Assembly: GCA_021845925.1 (NCBI GenBank)
Contig: JAJZUW010000007.1
Span: 62,001 to 126,000 of the forward strand
Length of the DNA: 64,000 nt
Direction: 5' to 3'
From: Pseudomonadota bacterium
Lineage (GTDB): Bacteria; Pseudomonadota; Gammaproteobacteria; Burkholderiales; Sulfuriferulaceae
The notes beneath the pieces are model-generated. The model did no database searches. It was given only the letters and a program-made list of their open reading frames with translations, and was not told the origin of the DNA. Positions 6,814 through 10,758 of this stretch are shown in pieces (positions within the stretch are counted from its first letter, which is position 1; every line of letters starts with the position of its first letter). Made by a program: the position numbers and the translations under genes.

Positions 6814-7083
6814 TCAGTCGGTGACAGAAGGGCTGGAAGGAGCCGGATTGGCCAGCCGTTCGAGCTCGACGATGCGGGTTTCCAGTGTGGCCAGTTGTTC
6901 ACGGGTGCGCAGCAGGACTTGCTGCTGTACGTCAAATTCTTCTCGTGTGACCAGGTCCAGTTTTTGCAACAGGCTGGCGATCAGCGCACGCAAATTGCTT
7001 TCCATGTCCTTGATGGGACCACCCTGCAAGGTCTGGGCAAGCCGGTTGCTGATGTCTTCGATCAGGTTCTGGTTGAGTTTCAT
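6814..7083 (-). CDS. ubiK: ubiquinone biosynthesis accessory factor UbiK (YqiC/BMFP family)
   Basis: 89 aa from the ATG at 7083 (MKLNQNLIEDISNRL). It is almost entirely helical: an amphipathic N-terminal region and a C-terminal coiled coil (LVTREEFDVQQQVLLRTREQ, LETRIVELERLA), the standard layout of the BMFP/YqiC family. UbiK trimerises and assists aerobic ubiquinone synthesis with UbiJ. A longer reading from 7188 adds a non-conserved stretch and is not preferred. It lies directly upstream of comM, an arrangement common in betaproteobacteria. Confidence 0.88.
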   Translation of the reverse strand: MKLNQNLIEDISNRLAQTLQGGPIKDMESNLRALIASLLQKLDLVTREEFDVQQQVLLRTREQLATLETRIVELERLANPAPSSPSVTD

Positions 7084-7170
7084 GACAATTCCTGTGTGCT
7101 GTGGCGGCTGACGATATTGTAACTGGCGGAAGCAGGCTCGAACAGGGATAACTTGCGTAGATTCTGATTT

Positions 7171-7269
7171 GCACTGCCAGAGTGCCAAAGTGGACCAGAC
7201 AGTTGCGTGCGCACTGATCTGGTGCGCGAAAGCTGTGCATCGGTGCGTGGTGGTGCATCAGTCTGGTGC
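7171..7269 (+). promoter_or_regulatory. three NtrC-like enhancer sites
   Basis: Three matches to the NtrC half-site pattern GCAC-N7-GTGC occur in the 309-bp gap before the porin gene: 7171-7185 (GCAC/GTGC, exact), 7211-7225 (exact, extended to GCGCAC/GTGCGC at 7209-7227) and 7255-7269 (GCAT/GTGC, one mismatch). Their centres are 40 and 44 bp apart, about four helical turns, so all would lie on one face of the DNA. They sit roughly 95-180 bp upstream of the expected start from the sigma-54 promoter at 7333, a normal enhancer distance. The same gap holds the ubiK leader on the minus strand. Confidence 0.72.
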
Positions 7270-7332
7270 GACGGATTAGTGATAAAACGCAACTCCGTTA
7301 GATAACGTATTGTATTGCTGTCAAAATTTATC

Positions 7333-7348
7333 TGGCACGGTTGCTGCT
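7333..7348 (+). promoter_or_regulatory. sigma-54 promoter of porin-glnK-amtB
   Basis: TGGCACG-GTTG-CTGCT matches the sigma-54 consensus TGGCACG-N4-TTGCW with one difference; the GG and GC doublets are 10 bp apart as required. It lies 45 bp before the porin ATG and downstream of three NtrC-like sites, fitting activation under nitrogen limitation. Confidence 0.75.
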
Positions 7349-7392
7349 AGAGCTAAATCCGCAATGTTGCACTTTTTTACCGGGAGATATTG

Positions 7393-8565
7393 ATGCAAAA
7401 GATGAACAAAACCCTGTTGGCAGTTGCTTTGGCTGGCCTGTCTGCTTCTGCGCTGGCTGACAGCACACCGGCTGCACCTAGCCTCGGATCAGTGATTGCA
7501 GCCACCCCCGGTCTTGCCATTACCGGTTATGTGGCTGGCACCTATGATTACTTCAACACCGACAAACCGGCCAACCGTCAGTTCGAAACCACATCAAACG
7601 GGTTTACCGCCAATCAGGCAGCCCTGACAGTGGCGTATCTGCCAGCCAGCGGTGCAGGTGCCCAGGTGACGGCAATTGGTGGTTCGGATGCCCAGATCCT
7701 GCGTTCGGGTGAAACCTACCCGACGGCAACGCCGAATGCCCAGTTCGACCTGTTCAATGCGTTTGCCCAGTACGCCGTGGATACCTACACGCTGATGGCA
7801 GGTAAATTCTCGACCCTGACGGGTGCTGAAGTGGCGACCCCGAATGCAGACAATGAAATCTCGCGTTCGCTGCTGTATACCGATATGGAACCCATTACCC
7901 ATACCGGCGCCCGTGTTGTCGATGCCATTTCTCCGGCATTCACCATCACTGCAGGAGTGAACAACGGCTGGAACTACACCAGCTCGCCATCAACTGCCAC
8001 AGGCACCTCCGGCAAGACCTTCGAACTGGGCGTGTCTGGTACACCGGACAAGGCATTTGCCTATTCGCTGGCTTACTACAATGGCGATTCTCCCCTGTTT
8101 GATGGCTTGGGTAGTGGTGTCAACAGCAGTCTGCAATTGTTCGATGCTGTGCTGACCTGGAATGCAACCGATAGCCTGACTTTCATCCTGAATGACGATT
8201 ATCTGTCCAAGGACAACGTCGGATTGCTCAATGGCACCACCGGTACCGGTACCGCCAACGGTATCGCCCTGTATGCCAACTATGCACTGACACCGGAATG
8301 GATGCTGTCGTTGCGTGGCGAATATGTGAATGACTCCGACGGCATGCTCACCATGAACAGCGGAGTGGCAGCAGCCACCTTTGCTGGTGCAACATCCAAC
8401 ACGCTGAAGGAAGGCACGATTGCACTGAACTATACCCCGGTGAAAAACCTGAAGCTGTCAGGCGAACTGCGGGAAGATGAATCCAGCGTCAACATGTTCG
8501 TGAAGAACGGTACTGCCGCATCCAGCCAGACATCGGTCGAATTCCAGGCCATGTACATGTTCTGA
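7393..8565 (+). CDS. outer-membrane beta-barrel porin (BBP2/OmpL-like)
   Basis: 390 aa. The ATG at 7393 follows a GGGAG ribosome site by 6 nt; a TTG directly before it is not needed. Residues 1-~21 are a signal peptide ending ALA-D. The rest alternates short hydrophobic/aromatic strands and ends in an aromatic C terminus (FQAMYMF), as for outer-membrane barrels. The content resembles the beta-barrel porin-2 family (GYVAGTYDYFNTD near the start, LKLSGELREDESS near the end). As the first gene of a glnK-amtB operon it probably assists entry of ammonium, nitrate or small nitrogen compounds; betaproteobacteria such as Herbaspirillum also carry an extra exported-protein gene in this operon. Confidence 0.8.
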   Translation: MQKMNKTLLAVALAGLSASALADSTPAAPSLGSVIAATPGLAITGYVAGTYDYFNTDKPANRQFETTSNGFTANQAALTVAYLPASGAGAQVTAIGGSDAQILRSGETYPTATPNAQFDLFNAFAQYAVDTYTLMAGKFSTLTGAEVATPNADNEISRSLLYTDMEPITHTGARVVDAISPAFTITAGVNNGWNYTSSPSTATGTSGKTFELGVSGTPDKAFAYSLAYYNGDSPLFDGLGSGVNSSLQLFDAVLTWNATDSLTFILNDDYLSKDNVGLLNGTTGTGTANGIALYANYALTPEWMLSLRGEYVNDSDGMLTMNSGVAAATFAGATSNTLKEGTIALNYTPVKNLKLSGELREDESSVNMFVKNGTAASSQTSVEFQAMYMF

Positions 8566-8582
8566 AGCGGTTTCCATCCTGA

Positions 8583-8939
<357 letters not shown>

Positions 8940-8952
8940 AGTGGAGAGCAAA

Positions 8953-10458
8953 ATGAAAAAATGGCTCGTAGCATTAAGTATGATGTTTGCCTTCGGGGCG
9001 CAGGGGGTGATGGCGGATGATACGCCGGCAGCACCAGCTGCAGCGCCTGCTGCCACAGCGCCTGCTCCGGCAGCTGCTCCAGCCGCAGCGGCACCGGCTG
9101 CTGCTGCAACCGCAGCTCCAGCCGCAGCGGCACCGGCTGCAGCTCCTGCGGCACCACCTGTGGCTGACAAGGGTGATACCACCTGGATGCTGATTTCCAC
9201 TGTACTGGTGATTGCCATGACCATTCCCGGTCTGGCGCTGTTCTACGGCGGACTGGTCCGCTCGAAAAACATGCTGTCCATGTTGTCGCAGGTGTTTGTC
9301 ATTTTCTGCCTGATCTCGGTGTTGTGGATGGTATACGGCTATTCGCTGGCATTTACCGCCAACGATTCGGCCAGTCTCAACAACTGGATAGGCGGAACGT
9401 CGCGGCTGTTCATGAAAGGCATCATGGATCCGTCAGCGATGTCGGAAACCTTCACCAAAGGGGTGTACATTCCCGAAGTCGTATTCATGGTGTTCCAGCT
9501 GACCTTTGCTGCGATTACCGTGGCACTGATCGTGGGTGGCATGGCTGAGCGGGTGAAATTCTCTGCCCTGCTGGTGTTCTCGGTGCTCTGGTTCACGCTG
9601 GTGTACATCCCTGTCGCCCATATGGTCTGGTTCTGGGGTGGTCCTTCGTCCTACCAGAGTCCTGCCGGCTTCCTGTTCAACAAGGGCGCGCTGGACTTTG
9701 CCGGTGGTACGGTGGTGCACATCAACTCTGGTATGGCCGCACTGATGGGTGCCATCGTGCTGGGCAAGCGGATTGGTTATGGCAAGGAATCCATGGCTCC
9801 GCACAGCATGGTAATGACCATGATCGGCGCCTCGATGCTGTGGGTGGGCTGGTTTGGCTTCAATGCCGGTTCCAACCTGGAAGCTGCGCCGACCGCTGTG
9901 CTGGCCATGGCCAACACCATTGTCGCTCCGGCGATGGCCGCCCTGACCTGGATGTTCATCGAATGGATCATGCATGGCAAACCCAGCCTGCTGGGTGCCT
10001 GTTCCGGTGCGGTTGCCGGTCTGGTCGCCGTGACCCCTGCCGCTGGCTTTGCCGGCATCATGGGCTCGCTGGTCCTCGGCGCGGTCGTGTCTGTCGTCTG
10101 CTACTGGAGCGTGAACTCGCTGAAGAAGATGCTGGGCTATGACGACTCGCTGGATGCCTTCGGTGTGCATGCTGTGGGTGGTTTCATCGGGTCGATCGGT
10201 ACCGGTATCCTGGTCAACCCGGCTCTGGGTGGTTCGGGTGTGTTCGACTACGGTGCCAACAAAGTCGCCGCCTTCGATCTGGGTGCGCAACTGATCAGCC
10301 AGTTGTGGGATTCGGGCGTGGTGATTGTCTGGTCCGGCCTGGTCAGCTTCATCCTGTTCAAGGTGATCGACATGGTGATGGGCCTGCGCGTGACTGAAGA
10401 AGAAGAACGCGAAGGTCTGGATATTACCAGCCACGGCGAACGCGCCTACAACCTGTAA
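8953..10458 (+). CDS. amtB: ammonium transporter AmtB with Ala/Pro-rich N-terminal linker
   Basis: 501 aa from the ATG at 8953, behind a GGAG site. A signal peptide (residues 1-~22, ending VMA-DD) is followed by an unusually long Ala/Pro-rich low-complexity stretch to about residue 70, then the Amt core of about 11 membrane helices. Core signatures are present: MTIPGLALFYGGLVR near the start of the core, FAGGTVVHINSGMAAL with the first pore histidine, and DAFGVHAVGGFIGSIGTG with the second. The C-terminal tail VTEEEEREGLDITSHGERAY is the PII-binding tail. It moves ammonium across the inner membrane. The Ala/Pro segment would sit in the periplasm if the signal peptide is used. Confidence 0.95.
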   Translation: MKKWLVALSMMFAFGAQGVMADDTPAAPAAAPAATAPAPAAAPAAAAPAAAATAAPAAAAPAAAPAAPPVADKGDTTWMLISTVLVIAMTIPGLALFYGGLVRSKNMLSMLSQVFVIFCLISVLWMVYGYSLAFTANDSASLNNWIGGTSRLFMKGIMDPSAMSETFTKGVYIPEVVFMVFQLTFAAITVALIVGGMAERVKFSALLVFSVLWFTLVYIPVAHMVWFWGGPSSYQSPAGFLFNKGALDFAGGTVVHINSGMAALMGAIVLGKRIGYGKESMAPHSMVMTMIGASMLWVGWFGFNAGSNLEAAPTAVLAMANTIVAPAMAALTWMFIEWIMHGKPSLLGACSGAVAGLVAVTPAAGFAGIMGSLVLGAVVSVVCYWSVNSLKKMLGYDDSLDAFGVHAVGGFIGSIGTGILVNPALGGSGVFDYGANKVAAFDLGAQLISQLWDSGVVIVWSGLVSFILFKVIDMVMGLRVTEEEEREGLDITSHGERAYNL

Positions 10459-10476
10459 CCTCCGGTCTTCCGGCTC

Positions 10477-10504
10477 AAGGGCACCCTGCGGGGTGCCCTT
10501 TTTT
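10477..10504 (+). terminator. rho-independent terminator after amtB
   Basis: A perfect 10-bp stem AAGGGCACCC / GGGTGCCCTT with loop TGCG is followed by more T residues. It ends the porin-glnK-amtB operon. Confidence 0.92.
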
Positions 10505-10529
10505 GTGGTGTGCCCAACCCTCCCACCTT

Positions 10530-10620
10530 CGTCATTCTGCGCGGAGCGAAGCGAAGTCGCAGAATCTTATATGGAGCATGAACAAGAACGACAGATTCCG
10601 CGACTGCGCGCGGAATGACG
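10530..10620. repeat. interspersed double-hairpin repeat (REP-like), copy 1
   Basis: Two hairpins: ATTCTGCG (10534-10541) pairs with CGCAGAAT (10558-10565), and ATTCCGCG (10595-10602) with CGCGGAAT (10609-10616); both have outward-facing CGTC/GACG ends. Near-identical modules occur at 45052-45250. The rest of the 406-bp gap after amtB (10505-10864) holds only a further GCGACTGCGCGCAAAAG fragment and the leader of the efflux operon; no gene is seen there. Confidence 0.85.
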
Positions 10621-10758
10621 ATACCCTCAACGCGACTGCGCGCAAAAGACGATACTCCGTAGGCAGTCAGCCGCCCAGCCTGATCCGTACGATGTTCAGG
10701 ATAGGTCGCGTTCATGGTTCGTAATGGAATGGTAATCCGCGCGGCAACGGGGCTTCGG

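Follow-up and report, generated by a model that had tools for sequence, protein, structure and literature searches.

An NtrC/sigma-54 promoter that responds to nitrogen starvation very probably occupies positions 7171 to 7348 of the 64,000-nucleotide stretch of DNA analyzed here (the window; all coordinates are window positions). It would drive an operon on the plus strand that encodes an outer membrane porin of the BBP2 family, the P-II protein GlnK, and the ammonium transporter AmtB, with the porin aiding the entry of nitrogenous solutes. We assign this reading, which comes from comparative sequence analysis, a probability of about 0.92. A −24/−12 element, at least two upstream dyads, the cognate regulators in the genome, and a layout kept in relatives were all found. 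Control of porin-glnK-amtB by NtrC and sigma-54 had been put forward in the original prediction for this DNA and is supported by the anatomy of the region, by the recurrence of the promoter in 26 of 32 loci, by the presence of NtrB, NtrC, and RpoN, by NtrC sites before glnA, and by an operon described in Herbaspirillum.

NtrC-like sites and the sigma-54 element

At activated promoters, NtrC dyads typically number two or more and lie ~80 to 200 bp upstream. Four dyads that depart from the NtrC consensus by zero or one mismatch were found, all of them within 7171 to 7269 (99 bp; Table 1). Three sites about 40 bp apart had been proposed before; those starting at 7171, 7211, and 7255 are present, with start-to-start spacings of 40 and 44 bp, but a fourth site at 7224 to 7238, which overlaps its upstream neighbor by two bases, had been missed. 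The −24/−12 promoter predicted downstream of these sites was recovered as TGGCACGGTTGCTGCT, with GG and GC correctly spaced and a match at 11 of 12 positions by our own consensus scoring.

Over the window as a whole, enrichment was seen for neither motif. The NtrC-like motif was observed 41 times against 70 expected from shuffles, and the sigma-54 motif was at chance level, with 5 observed and 5.2 expected. Only the clustering and pairing of the motifs therefore carry weight. The largest cluster of NtrC sites within 99 bp comprised two (n = 49) or three (n = 11) sites in 60 whole-window shuffles, compared with four in the real sequence. When 7090 to 7392 was shuffled 20,000 times, 15 shuffles contained three NtrC sites and none contained four; none combined three sites with a sigma-54 match of 11/12 at 50 to 170 bp downstream.

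Conservation of the promoter in relatives

The window was compared with 40 loci of related genomes (41 with the window). Because these loci were picked by a match to AmtB or the porin and not at random, the proportions given here are not frequencies in nature. Thirty-two loci of the same taxonomic order, including the window, carry a gene in the slot before glnK and were scanned together. Left out of this set were three loci cut by contig ends (L086, L092, and L102) and one without glnK (L097), and five loci with no slot-type gene found beside glnK (L109, L113, L116, L121, and L122) were scanned apart. An NtrC-like site was present in 30 of the 32 loci and a sigma-54 match of at least 10/12 in 28; a suitably spaced pair of the two (70 to 170 bp apart) was present in 26, at thresholds set after a first scan of the same 32 loci. 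Shuffled sequences would give such a pair in 0.04 of 32 loci, and a single one of 369 control stretches taken from these loci had it. Both elements were found in all 16 genus loci readable here (13 from the 32-locus scan, plus G005, G007, and G015; G003 and G016, unreadable at this locus, are excluded), and the same promoter stands directly before glnK in three of the five slot-less loci (L113, L116, and L121).

The distances from NtrC site to −24 element cluster at 77 to 79 and 107 to 110 bp, with a third group at 121 to 124 bp. In the commonest layout among relatives, one site starts ~108 bp and the other ~77 bp upstream of the −24 element. The spacing of ~40 bp originally described is thus refined, as the commonest spacing by this sequence comparison is ~31 bp. 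Both perfect sites of the window, which begin 162 and 122 bp before the −24 element, are extra to the common two-site layout. One locus, L101 (G058), carries two copies each of BBP2 and glnK, arranged in tandem ahead of amtB, and no NtrC or sigma-54 match at the thresholds used was found before the first tandem copy.

Regulators in the genome and a proposed mechanism

The window's genome encodes NtrC (TIGR01818, 697.6 bits against a cut-off of 558.6), NtrB (NF008293, 338.2 bits against 240), and RpoN (TIGR02395, 476.5 bits against 277.35). NtrC was found in 17 of 18 genomes of the genus, with no match in G005. The ntrC matches in G006 (L208) and G010 (L211) each contain one in-frame stop, which may be a draft-assembly error, a gene end, or a real change. 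In the window's genome glnA and, downstream of it, ntrBC share a contig, and the glnA promoter region contains two NtrC dyads that match perfectly and are spaced 31 bp apart. A pattern search for NtrC/sigma-54 targets gave 28 matches, two of which are the promoter described here, and its backward control gave none; a second such search (15 matches, with 2 in the backward control) was not used as evidence.

We propose that under nitrogen shortage NtrB phosphorylates NtrC, whose dimers would occupy the sites at 7171 to 7269, assemble, and loop across ~80 to 160 bp, spending ATP to open sigma-54 RNA polymerase at 7333 to 7348. One mRNA, running from ~7359 to a hairpin near 10500, would then yield the BBP2 porin, GlnK, and AmtB. 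AmtB would move ammonium across the inner membrane, gated by GlnK, and the porin most likely makes the outer membrane more permeable to ammonium or other small nitrogenous solutes. The promoter is retained in relatives where the first gene differs, whether before a gene of the TorF family or directly before glnK.

Comparison with known systems

The closest described counterpart is the nlmA-glnK-amtB operon of Herbaspirillum seropedicae, which is NtrC dependent and induced by nitrogen limitation, with an amtB::lacZ fusion 21 times higher in low nitrogen (PMC3023670). The likeness is one of gene order (membrane-protein gene, glnK, amtB) and of regulation; unlike the nlmA operon as described there, the first gene here encodes a BBP2 porin, and in most relatives it encodes TorF. 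The TorF/Gcw_chp-glnK-amtB loci of the same order share the promoter layout, the slot, and usually a divergent ubiK-like neighbor with the window, but their barrel belongs to TIGR02001/PF09694, whereas that of the window belongs to PF07642.

In Kuenenia stuttgartiensis a BBP2 gene, KSMBR1_3177, is strongly induced when ammonium is limiting, and ammonium entry through its porin was proposed in that study (PMC7438415). This organism belongs to a different phylum, and the likeness consists of the BBP2 family and the response to ammonium limitation. In an OM43 methylotroph, NB46_00251, like the slot gene, lies in a putative operon with glnK-amtB; it is described only as a hypothetical protein, and its 1,900-fold rise in a nutrient-depleted regime was the greatest transcript change of that study (PMC5120137). 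The NtrC regulon table of Burkholderia cenocepacia lists several porins, with changes in both directions (PMC5491218). Neither glnK nor a porin is mentioned in the accessible text of a profiling study of Azoarcus BH72 (PMC3916325), and the corresponding text of a sigma-54 regulon survey mentions no porin, amtB, or ammonium (PMC12316311); for Ferrovum JA12 the available text names AmtB and no porin (PMC4725956). No report of a barrel exchange or of the leader element described below was found in the literature covered, partly as full text, which took in few subscription journals.

An exchangeable barrel before glnK

Among the 32 loci, Pfam assigned the slot gene to TorF/Gcw_chp in 21, to BBP2 in 10, and to neither family in 1; on a 14-locus subset, NCBIfam recognized TorF in 8, the same number as Pfam. 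Gcw_chp is labeled in Pfam as a protein of unknown function and BBP2 as a putative porin, and we know of no settled function for either family. The two are unrelated, and the slot between promoter and glnK is, on this comparison, exchangeable. The pairing of a porin with the ammonium transporter, as it was first noted, is borne out in that a BBP2 porin precedes glnK-amtB, but the porin is an exchangeable rather than a fixed partner.

An NtrC tree of the genus (one gene, 17 genomes, of which 15 were typed as 8 BBP2 and 7 TorF) has well-supported branches that require at least three slot switches. Sister pairs of different slot type are G009 (TorF) with G004 (BBP2) and G001 (BBP2) with G008 (TorF). 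Between G009 and G004, identity is 78 to 98% in the promoter, 88% at the start, at background in the mature part, and 90 to 98% in glnK. The G004 locus (L085) is a mosaic: its flanks resemble those of G009 (L084; 80 to 100% upstream and 87 to 100% in glnK), whereas its mature barrel resembles that of G010 (L096; mostly 70 to 93%, lower in a few short stretches). Outside the barrel, G010 and G004 share 70 to 90% in glnK and mostly less than 60% upstream. The change points fall within the region of the signal peptide and just upstream of glnK; G015 was not part of this comparison. A BBP2 tree groups G004 with G010 and G007 with full support, whereas the NtrC tree groups it with G009.

The AmtB proteins encoded at this locus are of two types in the genus. 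Those of G006, G015, G001, and G008 are 58 to 59% identical to that of the window, and the remaining complete ones are 74 to 87% identical; the figure for glnK in genus loci is >92%. The two AmtB types (noted at L093, L094, L095, and L102) do not follow the porin type, and further amtB copies elsewhere in several genomes could be their source. On a contig titled Gammaproteobacteria (L006:1-2753), a BBP2 porin gene lies downstream of glnK (cut) and amtB instead of upstream.

A conserved leader element next to the predicted start

In a promoter-anchored comparison, few letters are better conserved than those right after the predicted start. The motif GCANNNTTGC, usually GCAAT(A/G)TTGC, starts at +2 to +4 in 19 leaders that were chosen by this very pattern (15 from the genus and 4 from outside it). 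It is present in all 16 readable genus loci, G015 included, and is found with TorF and BBP2 alike. When 399 genomes of the order were searched for a sigma-54 match combined with the leader element, 28 matches turned up in 24 genomes, and none in the backward control. The genomes with a match comprise all 13 sampled members of the genus and 11 of 386 others. Seventeen of the 28 matches are at this locus, including those of four genomes of three other families (G028, G330, G244, and G380), and the other 11 have no slot, glnK, or amtB match beside them. Outside the genus, then, the element is rare yet over-represented at this locus, as far as these genomes indicate. One of the 11 matches elsewhere, from another family (L214:1374-1535), has, besides its sigma-54 match and leader-like letters, two NtrC-like sites 127 and 99 bp upstream.

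Several interpretations of the element were tried and set aside. GCAATRTTGC occurs at 23 places in the window's genome, and there is no sign of a regulon marked by it, since the other 22 occurrences are all inside open frames of at least 278 amino acids; a backward-pattern control for this count (0 and 1) differs in composition and was not used as an expectation. A small upstream frame (ATG at 7364, nine codons, with a stop overlapping the porin start codon) was rejected because the ATG is absent from 4 of 13 genus leaders, which have ATA, ATA, ATC, and CTA. An RNA hairpin at the 5' end with an extended stem has at best weak covariation support: the three flanking pairs form in 11, 12, and 9 of the 19 leaders, against shuffle means of 11.4, 7.9, and 8.5 (P = 0.88, 0.03, and 0.51). 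One fold of the window leader contains the three flanking pairs, and a slightly longer piece folds differently. The leading ideas are that the element serves as an operator or that it exerts control as part of the initially transcribed sequence; it may also function at the mRNA end.

Weighing the alternatives

Several points weigh against the proposed nitrogen-starvation promoter with an uptake porin behind it. The pair of elements is absent at our thresholds from six of the 32 loci (L101, L106, L110, L111, L112, and L119), most of which still have one of the two, and the slot-less L109 and L122 (two of five) have NtrC sites with no sigma-54 match of at least 10/12. The window sites at the positions common in relatives (109 and 78 bp before the −24 element) each have one mismatch, and the sigma-54 match before glnA is weak, at only 9/12. 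Seventeen of 22 loci found by porin similarity (L007 to L023, the more remote BBP2 relatives) have no glnK or amtB match, so the tie to glnK-amtB belongs to the slot and not to the BBP2 family as a whole; among four of these (L007, L009, L013, and L015), the neighbor is a fatty-acid-desaturase gene in three, and MdoG and an ABC-2 transporter gene in the remaining one. Ammonium may, moreover, already cross general porins freely.

Last among the rival explanations in our estimation, and scarcely credible, is that the motifs cluster by chance in a GTGC-rich stretch while a sigma-70 promoter drives the operon. The lack of motif enrichment over the window would suit it, but four sites appeared in none of the 20,000 local shuffles, the pair is kept in most relatives, and both sigma-70-like sites in 7000 to 10700 are on the minus strand (such sites are not commoner here than in shuffles). 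That a sigma-54 activator other than NtrC works through these sites is also very unlikely. Such proteins are at hand, as NtrC is only one of six strong Sigma54_activat matches in the genome, leaving five further AAA+ activators; however, the sites fit the NtrC consensus, perfect copies precede glnA of this genome, and in Herbaspirillum an operon of the homologous kind depends on NtrC (PMC3023670). A more serious alternative accepts the NtrC/sigma-54 promoter as real, and is thus compatible with that part of our reading, and supposes that the slot tolerates different barrels for reasons besides ammonium entry, such as the uptake of other nitrogen compounds or the exchange of surface loops under pressure from phages or predators. 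The alternation of two unrelated barrel families, the switches within the genus, the recombinant mosaic, and the promoter directly before glnK in some slot-less loci are all in keeping with it. The recurrence of outer membrane barrels beside glnK-amtB, even downstream in L006, and the upregulation on ammonium limitation described for the Kuenenia BBP2 porin (PMC7438415) favor a role in nitrogen uptake instead, and we consider a merely tolerant slot possible but on the improbable side.

With a nitrogen-starvation promoter as the preferred reading, the locus is mostly as expected, being a fresh instance of an operon type already described; what specialists might not anticipate is the exchange of the barrel and the conservation of an element at the transcript start. 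We tentatively suggest, at somewhat short of even odds, that both are undescribed features of the glnK-amtB promoter in this order. The near-palindrome GCAAT(A/G)TTGC would be a second control element, acting as an operator or, being transcribed first, as a determinant of promoter escape or of the fate of the mRNA; recombination within the signal-peptide region and ahead of glnK would swap the barrels; and nitrogen starvation would induce whichever barrel a lineage had captured. The permeability of the outer membrane would thereby be placed within the nitrogen-scavenging program, with the promoter kept and the barrel behind it replaced. The exchange could serve as a natural experiment that bears on the common properties of TorF and BBP2 barrels; if two unrelated barrels fill one slot, a shared job is testable by swapping them. 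The conserved element suggests that promoters of a much-studied kind are subject to additional control.

Genes of the predicted operon and its neighbor

The features of the region are collected in Table 1. The order of membrane-protein gene, glnK, and amtB spans 7393 to 10458, and the intergenic gaps (35 bp between porin and glnK and 13 bp between glnK and amtB) suggest that the three genes form one transcript. The sole terminator-like site is no evidence by its count, because shuffles average 3.0.

TABLE 1 Coordinates of the promoter, leader, and genes in the window
Feature	Position	Strand	Description
NtrC-like site 1	7171-7185		GCACTGCCAGAGTGC; 0 mismatches; begins 162 bp before −24 element
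NtrC-like site 2	7211-7225		GCACTGATCTGGTGC; 0 mismatches; begins 122 bp before −24 element
NtrC-like site 3	7224-7238		GCGCGAAAGCTGTGC; 1 mismatch; begins 109 bp before −24 element
NtrC-like site 4	7255-7269		GCATCAGTCTGGTGC; 1 mismatch; begins 78 bp before −24 element
Candidate sigma-54 −24/−12 promoter	7333-7348	+	TGGCACGGTTGCTGCT; 11/12 consensus positions
Predicted transcription start	7359	+	12 bases downstream of the −12 GC
Leader element	7361-7370	+	GCAATGTTGC at +3 to +12, then a T run
Shine-Dalgarno-like GGGAGA	7382-7387	+	Read from the sequence
BBP2 porin gene	7393-8565	+	PF07642; 390 amino acids; 171.4 bits against a cut-off of 26.2, residues 41-390
glnK	8601-8939	+	P-II protein; 112 amino acids; Tyr51 present; NF007946 above cut-off
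amtB	8953-10458	+	Ammonium transporter; 501 amino acids; TIGR00836 above cut-off
Terminator-like hairpin and T tail	10477-10500	+	Sole one found in 7000-10700
Divergent ubiK-like gene	6814-7083	−	Pfam BMFP above cut-off; frequent neighbor of this promoter in relatives

BBP2 was the only Pfam match of the window porin, and NCBIfam, TorF (TIGR02001) included, gave no match to it at an E value of 0.001. An AlphaFold2 model built from a 19-sequence alignment (18 of the 22 porin-similarity loci contributed; L004, L005, L008, and L012 were left out) is a barrel of 16 long strands by our count, which omits two three-residue strands, with a moderate mean confidence score (pLDDT) of 73.8. Its best solved matches by VIA-align were OprP, OprO, DcaP, and Omp32 (Z scores of 23 to 25), with OprP at 25.1 over 321 residues and a root mean square deviation of 3.6; by Foldseek E value, OmpT of Vibrio came first. 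A sequence search for solved relatives returned none at an E value of 0.1. Judging from the model, "porin" is a fair name, and the substrate is not readable from the fold.

The name glnK is based on NF007946 and on the position before amtB. Against the AmtB equivalog model NF007947, the transporter scored 495.9 bits, under the cut-off of 657; it has a long alanine/proline-rich stretch after the signal peptide (9010 to 9165, plus strand). A search for known RNA families gave one match at 8470 to 8517, at chance level. The ubiK-like gene scored 68.2 bits against NF047835, under the cut-off of 100. A weak sigma-70-like site at 7161 to 7188 on the minus strand, aimed at this divergent gene, overlaps NtrC-like site 1, and NtrC might therefore affect ubiK.
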